From assembly GCA_018385335.1 (NCBI GenBank), contig JAHAZN010000052.1, positions 1 to 64,000 on the forward strand: a DNA stretch of 64,000 nucleotides, written 5' to 3'. Positions 21,732-29,096 of the stretch are shown here, piece after piece. The notes under the pieces are model-generated. The model saw only the letters and a program-made list of their open reading frames with translations, ran no database searches and was not told where the DNA came from. The translations under genes and the position numbers were made by a program. Every line of letters begins with the position of its first letter. Positions within the stretch are counted from its first letter, which is position 1. This stretch comes from Prevotella sp. GTDB taxonomy: Bacteria > Bacteroidota > Bacteroidia > Bacteroidales > Bacteroidaceae.

Positions 21732-21819
21732 GGAAAGTTGGCAGAGTGATCGAATGCGCTGGACTCGAAATCCGGTATACCCCTTTCGGGTATCGGGGGT
21801 TTGAATCCCTCACTTTCCG
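21732..21819 (+). tRNA. tRNA-Ser (CGA)
   Basis: GGAAAGT...ACTTTCCG acceptor stem, CTCGAAA anticodon loop, long variable arm, discriminator G. Confidence 0.93.
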
Positions 21820-21833
21820 CTTAACGTTGCAAC

Positions 21834-21889: not shown

Positions 21890-22804
21890 TTATTGTAAGC
21901 CCCAGGATGATAGGGAGCAGAGCTTCTCTACAGAGTTCTCAATATTGTCGGGGAGATTACAGAAGAAATCAATGCCTGTGAGTTCTTCCAACCGGTCTAT
22001 CGATATCAGGTAAGGGGTGAGTTTGGTTGAACGATCGGCTTTGTGCTCTGCCCAGAAGGCAATCGCCTTATACCCTTCGTTCTTCTTGCAGAGGATAGCC
22101 ATGAAGAAATACTTGGGTACGAGGAGCTTCATGCTGCTGCCAGGAACGAGTGTTCCCGGGTCGAGCGTCTGTCCTTCGGCGATGGTACCACCCTTACATA
22201 CAAACAGCGTATCGCGGAATCTGTTCTCGTTCCATTTCCTCAGTTGGTTCTCCATATTCCCCCAGACGCCAGCATTGAAGTCGTAAATCTGCGGCTGCAT
22301 ATTAGAGAGATAGAACGTCTGCTCATTGGCATTCTTACTGCATAGGCGGTCGGCAGAAGGACAGATATGTCCGCGGTTATAACGAGTACCCCTGTAGTCT
22401 TCCAGCTTAGTGCGATATTTTGCAGGAAGTAGGGGGTCTATCTGGAAAGGGTCTCCCTGCCACTCGGTGTTCTGCCAGTTGTTTCTGTTCCACGGCCCTT
22501 TGGTGTTCTTGTCATACATCTGGTAGGCAGTCCATCGCTGTGCTTTCTTCTTGCAGTCCCATTCGATGATCATGTTCACACCGATATCTACACTCTTATG
22601 CACCAGCAGCATATACTGTGAACCGTTGGCAAGATGTGGCATCTCTAACCGTCCTGCTTCGGGGATGGCAGCAGTGATGTTCCTGTTTGTATTGTCCGAA
22701 GACGAATTTCCATTCGTCCCTCCCTCTTCATCGTCGCTACAAGCTACCAATAGGAATGGTGCAAAGAGTAGCAGAAAGAAATAGCTTGTTAGTTTGTCCG
22801 TCAT
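21890..22804 (-). CDS. DNA/RNA non-specific endonuclease (NUC1 family), lipoprotein
   Basis: Lipobox LLVACSD; YRGTRYNRGHICPSADRLC...NEQTFYLSNMQPQ nuclease motif. Confidence 0.92.
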   Translation of the reverse strand: MTDKLTSYFFLLLFAPFLLVACSDDEEGGTNGNSSSDNTNRNITAAIPEAGRLEMPHLANGSQYMLLVHKSVDIGVNMIIEWDCKKKAQRWTAYQMYDKNTKGPWNRNNWQNTEWQGDPFQIDPLLPAKYRTKLEDYRGTRYNRGHICPSADRLCSKNANEQTFYLSNMQPQIYDFNAGVWGNMENQLRKWNENRFRDTLFVCKGGTIAEGQTLDPGTLVPGSSMKLLVPKYFFMAILCKKNEGYKAIAFWAEHKADRSTKLTPYLISIDRLEELTGIDFFCNLPDNIENSVEKLCSLSSWGLQ

Positions 22805-22860
22805 TGATATTCTTTTAGCTCAAAATTGAGCGTTGTTGCATCTTTTGTATAGATAATAGA

Positions 22861-22885
22861 ACCTACGCCCGGCAAGGGCGTAGGT
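22861..22885 (-). terminator. Terminator hairpin of the DUF6359/DUF5689/TonB operon
   Basis: ACCTACGCCC-ttgcc-GGGCGTAGGT (minus strand), perfect 10-bp stem. Confidence 0.7.
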
Positions 22886-22915
22886 TACTAAAGTTGTTTC
22901 CTATGGTCAGTCAAC

Positions 22916-24358
22916 TCACTGGGCGTAGGTGATTTCGATTGTCTTTACACGCAACTGTACTCCACCACTGTTGCCTGTATGATCGTTGACAACCTTCCAT
23001 GTGTTGCCATCTACTGCGGTGTACAACAATTCATTGCCCACATAGTTGGTTCCTTGATAGGCATCACAAATGAGCTTAACGGCAGCAATAGCTTTGGTTC
23101 CTGTGATAGTCATTGAGTTGAGTGCATACATTCGCACACCTTTGCTCGCTTCATAATACTTAGGTGCATTGTTTCCTCCCTCCTGTGCGAATGAGATGGT
23201 GGTACCATCAGACAATGTGACTACTTTGGGCTCTGTTGCATTCTCCCATCCATATTCACCCAGATTACATGTCACCGTCTCAGAGGAAGGAGTGGCTTTG
23301 TCGTAGGTGATGGTAATGATGTTCTCCGCCTTGCTCACCGTTGCCTTCTCGCCTTCAATAGGTGTTTCTGGCTCCTCTGTGCCAGGCTCATCGCCACCAG
23401 TCTCCTCGCCTTCGGTCTTTCCATTAAGCGAATAGAGGTAGGCTTCACCTTGAACAGTCTCGGGAGTATTGCCTTTGAAGTTGACTAATTTACCACAGAT
23501 AATCACCTCGTCGCCCTCTTTCAGCAGGTCGCCAGAGGCATACTTCTTGTTGCCAAGATAATTGGCACGCCATACCAAGAACTGGTTAGCAGAGGTGCCG
23601 TCATCGGAAACATAGAAAGAAGCGTTACCAAAGGTTGTCCCATAGTTTTCTGTGATGCTCACCACCTTACCTTTGAAATAGCAGTCTTCTGTCGTCTTCT
23701 CGTCAGCACCAAGGGCTTGTGTTTTAGCCAAAACAGCTGCAACATTATAAGGATTGTTCAGCGAACCATCACCGGTGCTCTCGCCTGGAGTAGAGGGCTC
23801 CTCGGTGCCAGGTTCGTCGCCACCACCGATAGTTGCGCCATCCTTTTTCTTTAACTGATAGATATATGCTTTATTCTGTACAGTCTCATAGGTGCCGTTG
23901 TAGTTGGTAATCTTTCCGCAGACGATGACGGTATCGCCCACCTCGATCTGTGTATCACCATCAGCAAACTTCTTGTTGTCGATGTAATAGGCACGATAGA
24001 CATAGAAGTCATTGGTAGTTGTTCCATCTTCAGAAATATAGAAGGTTCCGTTGCCAAACTGGGTGCTGAAGGCTTCCTTAACTTTGGAGATGACACCCTT
24101 GATATATACGTCACTCGCAGTCTCTTCGCCAGAAGCCAACTTCTTAGCACATTCGTTGGCAGCTATTGCATTGAATGGAGATGCCAATGTTCCATCACCT
24201 TCAGCAACAACTTCACCACTACCACCACTTCCTTCACCATTGCCTCCACTGGCAGATACAGGGATAGAATAAGGTTCGGGCACATCCTCGCAACTTGTGA
24301 ATGAGAAGGCCACAGCGGCCAGTGCCATCACTGCATAGATAAATTTCTTTGCTTTCAT
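22916..24358 (-). CDS. DUF6359 domain-containing lipoprotein with two tandem OB-fold-like repeats
   Basis: FSFTSCEDVPEP lipobox; two repeats GDGTLASPFNAIAA...YVYRAYYIDNKKFADGD...GDTVIVCGKITNYNG and GDGSLNNPYNVAA...LVWRANYLGNKKYASGD...GDEVIICGKLVNFKG. Confidence 0.82.
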   Translation of the reverse strand: MKAKKFIYAVMALAAVAFSFTSCEDVPEPYSIPVSASGGNGEGSGGSGEVVAEGDGTLASPFNAIAANECAKKLASGEETASDVYIKGVISKVKEAFSTQFGNGTFYISEDGTTTNDFYVYRAYYIDNKKFADGDTQIEVGDTVIVCGKITNYNGTYETVQNKAYIYQLKKKDGATIGGGDEPGTEEPSTPGESTGDGSLNNPYNVAAVLAKTQALGADEKTTEDCYFKGKVVSITENYGTTFGNASFYVSDDGTSANQFLVWRANYLGNKKYASGDLLKEGDEVIICGKLVNFKGNTPETVQGEAYLYSLNGKTEGEETGGDEPGTEEPETPIEGEKATVSKAENIITITYDKATPSSETVTCNLGEYGWENATEPKVVTLSDGTTISFAQEGGNNAPKYYEASKGVRMYALNSMTITGTKAIAAVKLICDAYQGTNYVGNELLYTAVDGNTWKVVNDHTGNSGGVQLRVKTIEITYAQ

Positions 24359-24401
24359 ATCTTTTGTTTTTTTAATTATCAATTATATATATAATAAAGT
24401 A

Positions 24402-25277
24402 TTATTTGATTTCCTCGATGTCATTCTCATCGCGGATGATGAACTCCCATTTGTTGTTGTAGCGTTTCACGATACCCGTGATGTTACACTTGCCCTGAGG
24501 CATTGTGCGCCCGGCAAAGTCGCAGTAGGGAGAGGTATAAATCATGATCGTTTCACCGCTGAACTCATTGAAATAGTAGCTCACGGATTCTCCTGCATCG
24601 GGGTCAGCGAAGAGGCTGTTGGGGGTGATGTCGCGGAACGACACGTTCTTGATGATGCCGAGTTTACCGCCATCAGCTTCGAGCGACCATGAGGTTGTGC
24701 CACCTGTTGCACCATCGGCAAAGAGCACGGGCTCTATCACCTTCTTGTTGCCTGTAATCTTAAAATGCTGCTGCCAGAGGAAGCGGCTCATTCTGCTCAC
24801 ATAGGTGTTGCCCTTGCTGTTGGTGTAGGGGACGCCTATCTCAGCCTGCTTGCCGTAGTTGCCTACGTAGAGGCCCTTGAGGTCCACCACGATCTCTGTG
24901 CCTACGGGCAGGTAGCCGAAGATGCCACCCTGCGACACAGCGATGATGATAGCCTGATTGCTCTCATCCTGGATCACTACCTCGTTGTAGATGTTGCCAG
25001 CCAGATCATTTCCGGTTACATAACCTTTGATTTGCAGCTCTTCCTCTACTTTGATATAAGAGTAGCTCGTGTTGATATACGTATGAAAGCGCTCTTTCAG
25101 TGCCTTGATTGTTACCACATTTGTCTCCTTGATGTTGTTGTTGCCATAAGGAGACTCTTTCATTAGCGGTTCCTGCCATCCGTCGCCAAAGCCGATATCC
25201 TCACCATCAACACATGAGGAAAGACCTAAGCAGAGACTTGCTGAGATTAAAAGATATCTAAGATTTTTCATTGTCAT
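24402..25277 (-). CDS. DUF5689 domain-containing lipoprotein
   Basis: LGLSSCVDGEDIGFGD lipobox; LQIKGYVTGNDLAGNIYNEVVIQDESNQAIIIAV OB-fold-like region. Confidence 0.85.
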   Translation of the reverse strand: MTMKNLRYLLISASLCLGLSSCVDGEDIGFGDGWQEPLMKESPYGNNNIKETNVVTIKALKERFHTYINTSYSYIKVEEELQIKGYVTGNDLAGNIYNEVVIQDESNQAIIIAVSQGGIFGYLPVGTEIVVDLKGLYVGNYGKQAEIGVPYTNSKGNTYVSRMSRFLWQQHFKITGNKKVIEPVLFADGATGGTTSWSLEADGGKLGIIKNVSFRDITPNSLFADPDAGESVSYYFNEFSGETIMIYTSPYCDFAGRTMPQGKCNITGIVKRYNNKWEFIIRDENDIEEIK

Positions 25278-25283
25278 AACACA

Positions 25284-27875
25284 TTAGAATTTGTAGGCGA
25301 TGTTCAGCATTCCGTTGGTACCGAATGCGTAGAATTTCTTAGGATTGTTAGAGAACGAATAGGTACGGTTGTTGTTCTTTGTTGCTGTTGTCGTACCATC
25401 AGCATTGGTTGTTCTCGTGGTAGTATAGTCGCTGCGGCTCTGCTCGTAACCACCGGTTACCAACTTGATGTTGTTCAGGATGTTGGTCACAGAGAGGTTG
25501 ATAGAGAGTGAACCGTGTTTCAGACGGATATTCTTACCGATAGAGGCATCGACCATCAACCCACCTTTACCTTCAGCCTGGTCGGGTACGTCCGTTGATT
25601 TGATGATATTGCCGTTTGCGTCAACCACCTCCTGCTCCCATACACCCATGGTCTTGAGCGTACCTACATAGCGCAGGCAGGGAGACCATGAGAGGTAGAT
25701 GCGGTCGTAGTAGTTGCCGTTGAGGTCGATATACCATCCGTTGGCATGGTAGCTCAGTCCGAGGCTGAGGGCGGTGAGAGGTGTGCCGCTCTCACGCATG
25801 CCGTCGCTCATCACCCTGTCTTTGGTATAGACACCCTTGGTGGAGTTCATATAGCATACGTCAGCATTGTTGATATACTGAGCTTCGCTCCAGGTACCGA
25901 TAGCATTCAAGTCGAGGAAAGAGGCGAGCTTAAACTTCATTCCCAGTTCCACACCATAATATTCCTTCTCCATGCCCGTCATTGAGACATAAGAGAACGA
26001 GTTGATATCGTCGAAATAGAAGTTCTGCCATTCCGTAGCGTCCTTGATACGGCTGTAGTAACCGCTGATGTTAGCAGTGAGCCATGAGCCCTGGTACATA
26101 TAACTTGCCTCAGCACTCATCACCTGCTCGTTCTTCAGGTTGCTCACGTAGTCGTTGTTGATTTCAGGAGCTGCGAATGCTGTTGATGCCAAGGGAGCAC
26201 GCCATTCGTAGCCGCCGCCGATCTTCAGGAAATGTCCTCTTCCTGGTGCCCATGTGATGCTGGCTTTTCCGCCGCCGTCGAAGAACTCAGCTTTGCCACT
26301 CTTTCCGTATGAGTTGGTAGGAGCCAGACCGTTTCTCATCTTTCCCTCGCGCTGCATCTGAGTGCCAGTGACGCGTGCTGCCAGTCCGAAGCGGAAGTTA
26401 CCCACCTTAGCCTCATAGTTGGTCCATGCGGTGGCTTTGTTTACATACAAGTTATAGTCGTAACCGAACCTGTCACCCTCGCGTATTGCCCTATTTGGAT
26501 TGTTTAAGTCATACTGGATGATGGGTGAAGAGGCAGGGTAGGTGCCGAGCGCATAGGTGTTGATGTTATGATAAGAGGTAGCTCCAAGCATGTCCTCCAT
26601 CGTCTGATAATGCATACCCTTGTTGGTGGCTGCATTGAAACCGATGTTCCATGTGCTGTTCTTTGTCAACTGAGTGTTGAGTGCAGAAGAGATGGCGAGG
26701 TTGAGATTATCGTTGTGCTTAGCCTGGATAAAGTACATAGCATCCAATCCCTGAGCATTGGCCTGAGTGTTGGCATAATAGAGCTGGTCCCAGTCTATCT
26801 GTCTGTTCTCCTCGCAGGCAGTCCAGTAGTTATAGGCGGTGTGCCAGTCTTCCAGCGCCTGAACGGTGTTGTTGGTGTTCGATGGGTCCCACACATCATA
26901 GTAACTTGATGGCATGCGCTTCCAGTAGTCGGGCTGTGGGTTGTCGCTGTTGTTGTAGTTGAGTTTGGTGCTCTTATAGCGACTGTATTTGCCGAAGATA
27001 GAGGTGGTGAGCTTCATATCGTCGGTGATCTTATAGTCCCAGGTGAGCAGTGCCGAGGGAGCGAAGTCGTTCACCACGCGTGAGTTTCTCACCTTGCCGT
27101 TCTGATAGCCCCAGTAAGGGTTGTAGAAATTGCTGTTGGCCAACCAGTAGGCTTCGTCGGTAGAAGCACCCTGTGACGCCCTTTCTGTGGGGTTGCCCCA
27201 GGTGGTGAAGGCGAGACTGTGCTGGTCATTGATCTTCTTCTCTACAGCAAAGAAATAGGAGAGGGAGTTGTAGAACGTACCTTTGATGTATCCACGGTCA
27301 GCCCAGCGGTAACCGATGCTACCTGCAAACGACCATCCGTTGTCGCTGATGCCCGTGCCAAAGGAGTACATCGCCCTTATTGTATAGCTGCGGTTAGCCC
27401 CGCTGAGGGTGAGTTTGTTGCCGCTCGCCATGTGAGAGGCGCGGAAATCATAGTTGTTACTTCCTCCCATGCCCGACATGCCGAAGGTAGAGTTCTCGAA
27501 GGGAAGGGCAAAGTCAACGTTACGTGTCATGTTGTTGATACCGCCCACCAGAGAGTAGCGGAATTGTCCCGATTCCATGTCATTCATTGGTGTACCATTG
27601 ATATACACATCATTGAATTTCTGATTGAACGCACGATAGCGGAATCTCACGGGAGAAAAGAGGTATCCCACCTCACTTGCATACACATTGTTGCTTGAGT
27701 TGAGGATGGTGACGTTTTGCGACATGTCGTCATCTTCGCCCAACTGTGCTTCCGTAAAAGTGAATGCCTGTTCTGATTGCATTCCGTCTGTCTGCTCTTT
27801 TGTCTCCGTGTTCTGAGCAAAAGAGGTGACAGTGCAAGCCAATGCAATAGCGACTAATTTCAGCTTTTTCTGCAT
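25284..27875 (-). CDS. TonB-dependent receptor-like outer membrane protein
   Basis: Signal peptide, plug-like VYINGTPMNDMESGQFRYSLVGGINNMTRNVD, beta-barrel, C-terminal aromatic MLNIAYKF. Confidence 0.87.
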   Translation of the reverse strand: MQKKLKLVAIALACTVTSFAQNTETKEQTDGMQSEQAFTFTEAQLGEDDDMSQNVTILNSSNNVYASEVGYLFSPVRFRYRAFNQKFNDVYINGTPMNDMESGQFRYSLVGGINNMTRNVDFALPFENSTFGMSGMGGSNNYDFRASHMASGNKLTLSGANRSYTIRAMYSFGTGISDNGWSFAGSIGYRWADRGYIKGTFYNSLSYFFAVEKKINDQHSLAFTTWGNPTERASQGASTDEAYWLANSNFYNPYWGYQNGKVRNSRVVNDFAPSALLTWDYKITDDMKLTTSIFGKYSRYKSTKLNYNNSDNPQPDYWKRMPSSYYDVWDPSNTNNTVQALEDWHTAYNYWTACEENRQIDWDQLYYANTQANAQGLDAMYFIQAKHNDNLNLAISSALNTQLTKNSTWNIGFNAATNKGMHYQTMEDMLGATSYHNINTYALGTYPASSPIIQYDLNNPNRAIREGDRFGYDYNLYVNKATAWTNYEAKVGNFRFGLAARVTGTQMQREGKMRNGLAPTNSYGKSGKAEFFDGGGKASITWAPGRGHFLKIGGGYEWRAPLASTAFAAPEINNDYVSNLKNEQVMSAEASYMYQGSWLTANISGYYSRIKDATEWQNFYFDDINSFSYVSMTGMEKEYYGVELGMKFKLASFLDLNAIGTWSEAQYINNADVCYMNSTKGVYTKDRVMSDGMRESGTPLTALSLGLSYHANGWYIDLNGNYYDRIYLSWSPCLRYVGTLKTMGVWEQEVVDANGNIIKSTDVPDQAEGKGGLMVDASIGKNIRLKHGSLSINLSVTNILNNIKLVTGGYEQSRSDYTTTRTTNADGTTTATKNNNRTYSFSNNPKKFYAFGTNGMLNIAYKF

Positions 27876-28043
27876 AATAATATTCATTTATAATAAAGAT
27901 TTTGTGCAAAGTAACTAAATTTTATCTGAAGGGAGAAGAAAAAGTTTTGATTTTTTCGTTTTAATTGCATTTTTATGGAACAAATTGCCGATATTTGCAG
28001 TGCACAACGAAAAATAATCAATAATTGTAAAGATATCATAGCT

Positions 28044-29096
28044 ATGAGACGACTTTTTCCGCTCTTTCTTATGCTCTTTGTCGTGAGCATTGTGGCCACA
28101 GCACAGCAACGAAAATTTAATGTTTATGCCGTAGGGTTCTATAACCTTGAGAATCTCTTCGACACCTGTCATGATACGGGAAAGAACGATTTTGAGTTCT
28201 TGGCCAACGGCAGTTACAAGTGGAACGGCATTAAGTATTCAAATAAGTTGGCCAATATGTCGCGCGTTCTTGCTGAGATGGGTACCGACGTGCTGCCCTC
28301 ATCCGTGGGATGTGCGTTGATAGGTGTGAGTGAGGTGGAGAATGCCCGTGCGCTCAGCGACCTTATCGCCCAGCCAGCATTGGCAGCCCGCGGCTACCAG
28401 TTCTGTCATATTGAAGGTCCCGACCGCCGAGGTGTAGATTGTGCACTGCTCTATCAGCCCAAACTCTTCGAGGTGAAGAGTGTTCATCTCCATCCCTATG
28501 TGCAGACATTGGAGAAAGACTCTGCCTACAAGACCCGCGGGTTCCTTACTGTCAACGGCGTCCTCGCAGGAGAGTCGGTAACAGTCATCGTCAACCACCT
28601 TCCCAGTAGATTCAATGGCTCTTTCTACCGTGAGCAGGGTGCTAAGCAGATCACCGTCATCAAAGACTCTATCCTTCGCGAGTCACCAGCTACCAAGATT
28701 ATTGTGATGGGCGATATGAACGACGACCCTATGGATAAGTCGATGGCAGTAGAGTTACGTGGCAAACGATATATCAAGGATGTGGAACCTATGGATATGT
28801 ACAACCCCTGGTGGAATGTGCTGGTCAAGGATGGCAAGGGAACCCTGATGTATGACGGCCGTTGGAACCTCTTCGATCAGATTCTCCTCTCCTCTAATCT
28901 GCTCTGCAAGGCTGGGGTAAAAGATTATTCCACGCTGAAATATCTCAAACACCAGATATTCACCCGCGACTATATGCTTCAGACCGAAGGAAAATATAAG
29001 GGAAGTCCCAAACGTACCCATGCCGGAGGTGTATGGCTCAACGGTTTCAGCGACCACTTTCCCACAGTCGTCTATCTCGTCAAGGAGCTCAAATGA
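28044..29096 (+). CDS. Secreted endonuclease/exonuclease/phosphatase family protein
   Basis: Signal peptide; NVYAVGFYNLENLFD, VGDMNDDP, NGFSDHFPTVVYL motifs. Confidence 0.92.
   Translation: MRRLFPLFLMLFVVSIVATAQQRKFNVYAVGFYNLENLFDTCHDTGKNDFEFLANGSYKWNGIKYSNKLANMSRVLAEMGTDVLPSSVGCALIGVSEVENARALSDLIAQPALAARGYQFCHIEGPDRRGVDCALLYQPKLFEVKSVHLHPYVQTLEKDSAYKTRGFLTVNGVLAGESVTVIVNHLPSRFNGSFYREQGAKQITVIKDSILRESPATKIIVMGDMNDDPMDKSMAVELRGKRYIKDVEPMDMYNPWWNVLVKDGKGTLMYDGRWNLFDQILLSSNLLCKAGVKDYSTLKYLKHQIFTRDYMLQTEGKYKGSPKRTHAGGVWLNGFSDHFPTVVYLVKELK

Follow-up and report, generated by a model that had tools for sequence, protein, structure and literature searches.

What passes through an outer-membrane receptor whose neighbors are OB-fold lipoproteins and nucleases? 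The question is raised by a locus in the window, the whole 64,000-nucleotide stretch of Prevotella sp. DNA analyzed here, which lies on contig C53 of a 2.33 Mb genome in 84 contigs (G000). The initial annotation saw in it a scavenging system that cuts extracellular DNA or RNA, binds it and imports the fragments, analogous to a Sus system for nucleic acids or organic phosphate. Genetic uptake, the phenotype known for the orthologs in Riemerella, was absent from its readings. We argue instead that the locus is, on balance, likely to be an outer-membrane module for binding and importing DNA, with natural transformation as its main job.

Layout of the five connected genes

Every open reading frame that had been annotated was found at its position and in its orientation. 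The initial description of four genes running in one direction with a fifth divergent from them was confirmed through reading frames, Pfam matches and folds. The receptor (TBDR, 867 aa; 25284–27887, minus strand) is an outer-membrane protein with the fold of a TonB-dependent transporter, assigned through Foldseek comparison with the PDB, reciprocal best hits and a tree. It is followed on the same strand by a DUF5689 lipoprotein of 291 aa with a tandem OB fold (24402–25277; PF18942, E 9e-64) and by a second OB-fold lipoprotein of 480 aa (22916–24358; PF01336, E 1.8e-9), whose likely start codon is the ATG at 24358. Last comes a lipoprotein of the NUC1 type, a nuclease non-specific for DNA or RNA (NUC; 21890–22804, minus strand; PF01223 Endonuclease_NS, E 2.4e-42). 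On the plus strand, a likely ATG at 28044 opens the gene of a 350-aa secreted or periplasmic protein of the EEP nuclease/phosphatase superfamily (28044–29096; PF19580 Exo_endo_phos_3, E 2.6e-90). From the gene layout, the region between receptor and EEP (27888–28043) is presumed to hold divergent promoters.

A terminator-like 11-bp inverted repeat with a weak T tail (22860–22886, minus strand) stands between the genes of NUC and the second OB lipoprotein, where it would end the run of TBDR, DUF5689 and OB genes. It is suggestive at most, since shuffled sequence yields about as many sites (the hairpin scan found 7 against 6.3 expected by chance). NUC is probably an accessory with its own transcription unit. 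A tRNA-Ser gene (anticodon cga) was seen at 21732–21820, immediately downstream of it. The uridine kinase gene udk (assigned by TIGR00235) is outside the connected set. It occurs near the locus only in two genomes of the same genus (loci L071 and L087), and the link to nucleoside salvage once drawn from it thus falls away.

As in SusC/SusD uptake systems, one operon of the window encodes both a TonB-dependent barrel and surface lipoproteins. However, no SusD-family lipoprotein stands beside the receptor, as had been noticed at the outset, the neighbors being the PF18942, PF01336, PF19580 and PF01223 proteins. The window also differs from these systems in having no glycosidase, in the OB folds of its lipoproteins and in a receptor that matches neither the plug nor the barrel model of Pfam.

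Folds and motifs of the individual proteins

A Pfam search with the receptor returned no match of any kind, and a PDB sequence search with the single proteins found nothing for TBDR, DUF5689, the second OB protein or EEP. The AlphaFold model of the receptor (pLDDT 82) matches PqqU, Fiu, FhuA and FecA in the PDB (Foldseek; best E 1.5e-26), and with these matches it has the plugged 22-strand barrel of TonB-dependent transporters, the strand number being approximate. Pfam models for barrel and plug recognize two of 24 homologs. Of the 24 aligned homologs, 14 have a CarboxypepD_reg domain at the N-terminus, which the window TBDR lacks. The family alignment has a conserved FTFTE-like segment N-terminal of the plug, which from its sequence is a putative TonB box. 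In a quick tree, all DUF5689-linked receptors fall into one clade, with two paralogs outside. A match between the N-terminal part of the TBDR profile and NOMO2 was not taken as informative, and an apparently broken receptor gene in a genome of the same genus (G159) was rejected, as the gene enters a run of N and carries no mutation.

The AlphaFold2 model of the DUF5689 lipoprotein (pLDDT 89, pTM 0.81) contains two OB-like domains, in agreement with the OB folds that the initial annotation had proposed to look for by structure prediction. Its best matches in the PDB are Teb1-AB, IFI16 HIN, RPA and POT1, at E 2.4e-4 and weaker, with low whole-chain TM-scores that we ascribe to differing domain orientation. 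As modeled, the fold resembles that of tandem-OB DNA binders. The protein is acidic, with a pI of about 5, and a general positive charge, looked for in its sequence, is absent. A match of the N-terminal part of the DUF5689 profile to BamM was set aside as uninformative. In two loci (L124 and L125, from genomes G261 and G234), a gene of 193–238 aa lies between receptor and DUF5689; it looks like a separate C-terminal half of the DUF5689 lipoprotein, because it matches a fragment of NF052645 (positions about 296–456).

The second OB lipoprotein has the lipobox SFTSC followed by EDVPEP, two OB repeats and a C-terminal domain. The name DUF6359, under which it had been annotated, finds no match even at E<=5. 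The two OB-like repeats described with that name do stand, as PF01336 covers two stretches of the protein. A profile search places it in the same slot in most loci of the window's family. In one relative, the co-located homolog (L086:12500-14779) also matches the single-stranded DNA-binding protein family SSB (PF00436, 3.2e-8) and, below the cut-off, DUF5017, a domain that in Riemerella is fused to DUF5689; the two could form a domain-swapping series.

Lipoprotein signals are found in NUC, the second OB protein and DUF5689, with acidic residues after each cysteine. In NUC the lipobox cysteine is followed by SDDEE and the nuclease motif is NRGH; its PDB matches are the nucleases 2o3b/1zm8 and 1g8t/1smn, EXOG and EndoG. 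EndA of Streptococcus pneumoniae is a DRGH nuclease used in transformation that acts on DNA at the cell surface. It differs from NUC in being a Gram-positive membrane protein and is not among the PDB matches of NUC. A signal peptide without a lipobox marks the EEP protein, and both an E-x-E-N-like and a GD-x-N motif are present in 58/58 of its homologs. One further locus (L041:13492-19501, on G108:C11) has a single EEP gene flanked on opposite sides by two receptor-DUF5689 pairs, the second receptor being a distant paralog. This suggests that EEP is paired more generally with receptors such as these two.

Orthologs in Riemerella and conservation of the core

A transposon screen in Riemerella anatipestifer, a bacterium of ducks, covered a DUF5689 gene, RA0C_RS04920, and the adjacent RA0C_RS04915, which encodes an outer-membrane protein with a carboxypeptidase regulatory-like domain. 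Markerless deletion of either one brought transformation below detection, so that each is essential, and comEC, dprA and recA mutants were also untransformable (PMC8459023). The authors' proposal makes RS04920 a DNA-binding protein and RS04915 the carrier of that DNA over the outer membrane; they reported RS04915 homologs in Flavobacteriaceae only and mentioned the EEP gene only as an unaffected upstream gene (PMC8459023). Mutants in tonBA lost transformation and retained iron uptake, and the effects of tonBB were tied to iron (PMC8383284). By analogy, the tonBA phenotype fits a receptor that would be opened by TonB.

We identified the R. anatipestifer genome (G467; 2,164,087 bp) through exact matches to both published comEC primers (PMC8383284). 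In it, four genes separate recA from comEC and two more separate comEC from a divergent EEP, after which come TBDR and DUF5689; counting locus tags in steps of five from recA (RS04870) via comEC (RS04895) makes these last three RS04910, RS04915 and RS04920. Window proteins match their Riemerella counterparts at E 5e-76 (TBDR), 1e-51 (EEP) and 1e-15 (DUF5689) by blastp. The window TBDR and RA0C_RS04915 are reciprocal best hits, at 5.9e-68 and 2.6e-67 with the runner-up in Riemerella at 2.5e-24, and the receptor family therefore reaches the Bacteroidales. TBDR is a candidate DNA channel, orthologous to RA0C_RS04915, and the DUF5689 lipoprotein a candidate surface DNA receptor, the counterpart of RA0C_RS04920.

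The two loci share these three genes and the core layout with its divergent EEP. Unlike in Riemerella, the window receptor has no CarboxypepD_reg domain and the DUF5689 lipoprotein ends without the DUF5017-type region found at the C-terminus of RA0C_RS04920; the second OB lipoprotein and the NUC1 lipoprotein are additional, and comEC sits on another contig than the locus. A position of comEC beside the locus was rejected as a general rule, being seen only within the genus Riemerella. PF07075 (DUF1343), the family of another essential Riemerella gene (RS09020, outside the locus), has no match in G000, which is 91% complete. Just downstream of the transformation locus, G467 also carries genes resembling cas2, cas1 and a 1145-aa cas9 (L152; C1:1021490-1026931), so that an adaptive DNA-defense system adjoins a DNA-uptake locus.

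How far does this arrangement extend? Sequence profiles of the window proteins and their homologs were applied to 65 receptor loci. Twenty of these are Bacteroidales loci picked through DUF5689. The receptor alone served to pick 19 in the window's family and six in the genus Riemerella, and the DUF5689 lipoprotein family NF052645 served to pick 19 in other orders of the class, mostly in Flavobacteriales. The window itself completes the set. DUF5689 lies downstream of TBDR on the same strand in 65/65, usually with a gap below 50 bp (7 bp in the window). The receptor-picked loci form an unbiased subset, and in these DUF5689 is present in 25/25. This order exceeds chance, since it is kept in every locus examined, in Bacteroidales and Flavobacteriales alike. 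In 55 of the 62 loci whose contig permits the test, EEP adjoins TBDR, usually facing away from it and occasionally running in its direction; it is divergent in 49/65, window included. The core, with EEP divergent from TBDR-DUF5689, is conserved across the class Bacteroidia. The gene-order conservation that the initial annotation had called for thus exists, in a unit of OB lipoproteins, nucleases and a TonB-type receptor. NUC occurs within the 20-kb stretch in 13/19 loci of the window's family, while a DUF349 gene and other flanks show short-range synteny only.

The distribution of the receptor differs between families. In that of Riemerella the receptor query matches 150/150 genomes and 28/28 genera; in that of the window it is patchy, present by score in about 33/61 genomes and without a clear ortholog in about 28/61. 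One genome of the window's genus (G174, 99% complete) has no receptor match and retains ComEC and DprA; judging by this genome, the genus itself has seen loss or gain of the locus.

A candidate gate for DNA and its rivals

Import of DNA needs a continuation beyond the outer membrane. G000 encodes a 511-aa ComEC, DprA and a ComEA-like protein of 299 aa that has several HHH repeats and, N-terminally, a membrane segment (contigs C65, C70 and C43). In the type IV pilus/secretin (PilQ) route the same overall task is served with ComEA and ComEC, and ComEC, DprA and ComEA-like partners are common to the window genome. The secretin, however, has no match in G000 (PF00263), and is absent from 60 of 61 genomes of the family. 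The inner machinery is thus present without the usual outer-membrane channel. The presence of ComEC, DprA and the ComEA-like protein in G000 says little in itself, because they are near universal in the family (ComEC and DprA in 59/61 each, HHH_3 proteins in 61/61); co-occurrence of the receptor with them, considered as support, was discarded as uninformative for the same reason. For the transformable Porphyromonas gingivalis, the outer-membrane step of DNA uptake has been stated as unknown (PMC11532111).

The transformation reading is supported by homology, gene order, folds, the presence of comEC, dprA and a ComEA-like gene, and the absence of a secretin. From here we infer that the lipoproteins bind DNA, that it passes through the barrel in a TonB-dependent manner, that the nucleases take part and that the window species is competent. 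In such a module, DUF5689 and the second OB lipoprotein would capture extracellular DNA at the mouth of the TonB-type β-barrel. EEP, and in the window's family the NUC1 lipoprotein, might act on DNA by nicking, trimming or degradation, either at the surface or behind it, or clear what remains. TonB energy would open the plug and pull DNA inward; in the periplasm it would be passed on to the ComEA-like protein and ComEC, and released nucleotides may also be used.

Several points stand against DNA import. The species is without any report of transformation. Flavobacterium has homologs (PMC8459023), yet F. johnsoniae was not transformed under the conditions tested (PMC7965970). The family genomes that lack a clear TBDR ortholog nearly all have ComEC and DprA, so co-occurrence lends no support. 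DUF5689 is acidic, the DUF1343 family is missing from G000, comEC neighbors the locus within one genus only, and donor DNA, too, would fall to nucleases at the surface. To our knowledge, there is no precedent for a plugged TonB-type barrel carrying double-stranded DNA.

Competence being unreported, the F. johnsoniae result, ComEC without the receptor, the acidic DUF5689 and the missing DUF1343 are the reasons for which we keep a nutritional role as a rival, though an unlikely one. Secreted nucleases would cut DNA or RNA, OB lipoproteins would hold the fragments and the receptor would import oligonucleotides as food, for nucleic acid or organic phosphate, and transformation in Riemerella would be incidental to this gate. 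In its favor, the receptor is surrounded by two nucleases and two OB lipoproteins, NUC frequently accompanies the locus in the window's family, and the locus occurs in many genomes without reported competence, besides the untransformed F. johnsoniae (PMC7965970). However, nucleotidase, nucleoside transporter and phosphatase genes were not found as conserved core neighbors, udk is linked within the genus only, and the sole measured phenotype of the orthologs is transformation (PMC8459023). Moreover, removal of phosphate lowered transformation in Riemerella (PMC8383284), so a phosphate-starvation response is not suggested, and no evidence was found for phosphate control. The initial idea of nucleic-acid import is upheld in the conserved unit and in the Riemerella pair needed for transformation (PMC8459023); no supporting evidence was found for its Sus-like nutritional part.

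It is more doubtful still that the receptor imports other cargo, such as a nutrient or metal complex, and that transformation in Riemerella fails indirectly through envelope or energy effects. Small ligands are the usual imports of TonB receptors, the tonBB effects are tied to iron (PMC8383284) and DUF5689 is acidic. Against this, each of two markerless deletions was below detection (PMC8459023), the fixed partner DUF5689 folds like DNA-binding proteins, and a nuclease-superfamily gene, EEP, is the usual neighbor on the other side of the receptor. DNA handling at the outer membrane is favored over an unrelated substrate because transformation in Riemerella requires the two orthologous genes. 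Mere co-location by chance or short-range synteny, which describes udk, the DUF349 gene and other flanks, deserves almost no credence, as TBDR-DUF5689 is kept in all loci and two orders while flanks vary; chance is refuted for the EEP-TBDR-DUF5689 core, NUC excepted.

Returning to the DNA import module, the Riemerella pair and its transformation phenotype are already published, and no later open-access papers on the receptor-DUF5689 transformation pair were found. New here is that reciprocal best hits carry the receptor family into Bacteroidales, that a divergent EEP is a conserved part of the core, and that DUF5689 is modeled with a fold like that of tandem-OB DNA binders. Also new are the version of the locus that includes another OB lipoprotein together with a NUC1 nuclease, and the finding that the window's family almost entirely lacks secretins. 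It is an evenly balanced proposition that Bacteroidota without DNA-uptake pili possess a dedicated transporter for DNA, driven by TonB and served by tandem-OB surface lipoproteins and an EEP partner; this would be a further kind of outer-membrane gate, kept across the class, besides the secretin/pilus and ComB-type ones. The locus makes a good candidate for the DNA gate in the outer membrane of such bacteria. For the Bacteroidales, it offers a conserved, testable candidate for the outer-membrane step, whose partners and folds predict DNA binding. If true, TonB-type transporters can carry DNA, many host-associated Bacteroidales may exchange genes by transformation, and a way might be opened to engineering strains that are hard to modify.
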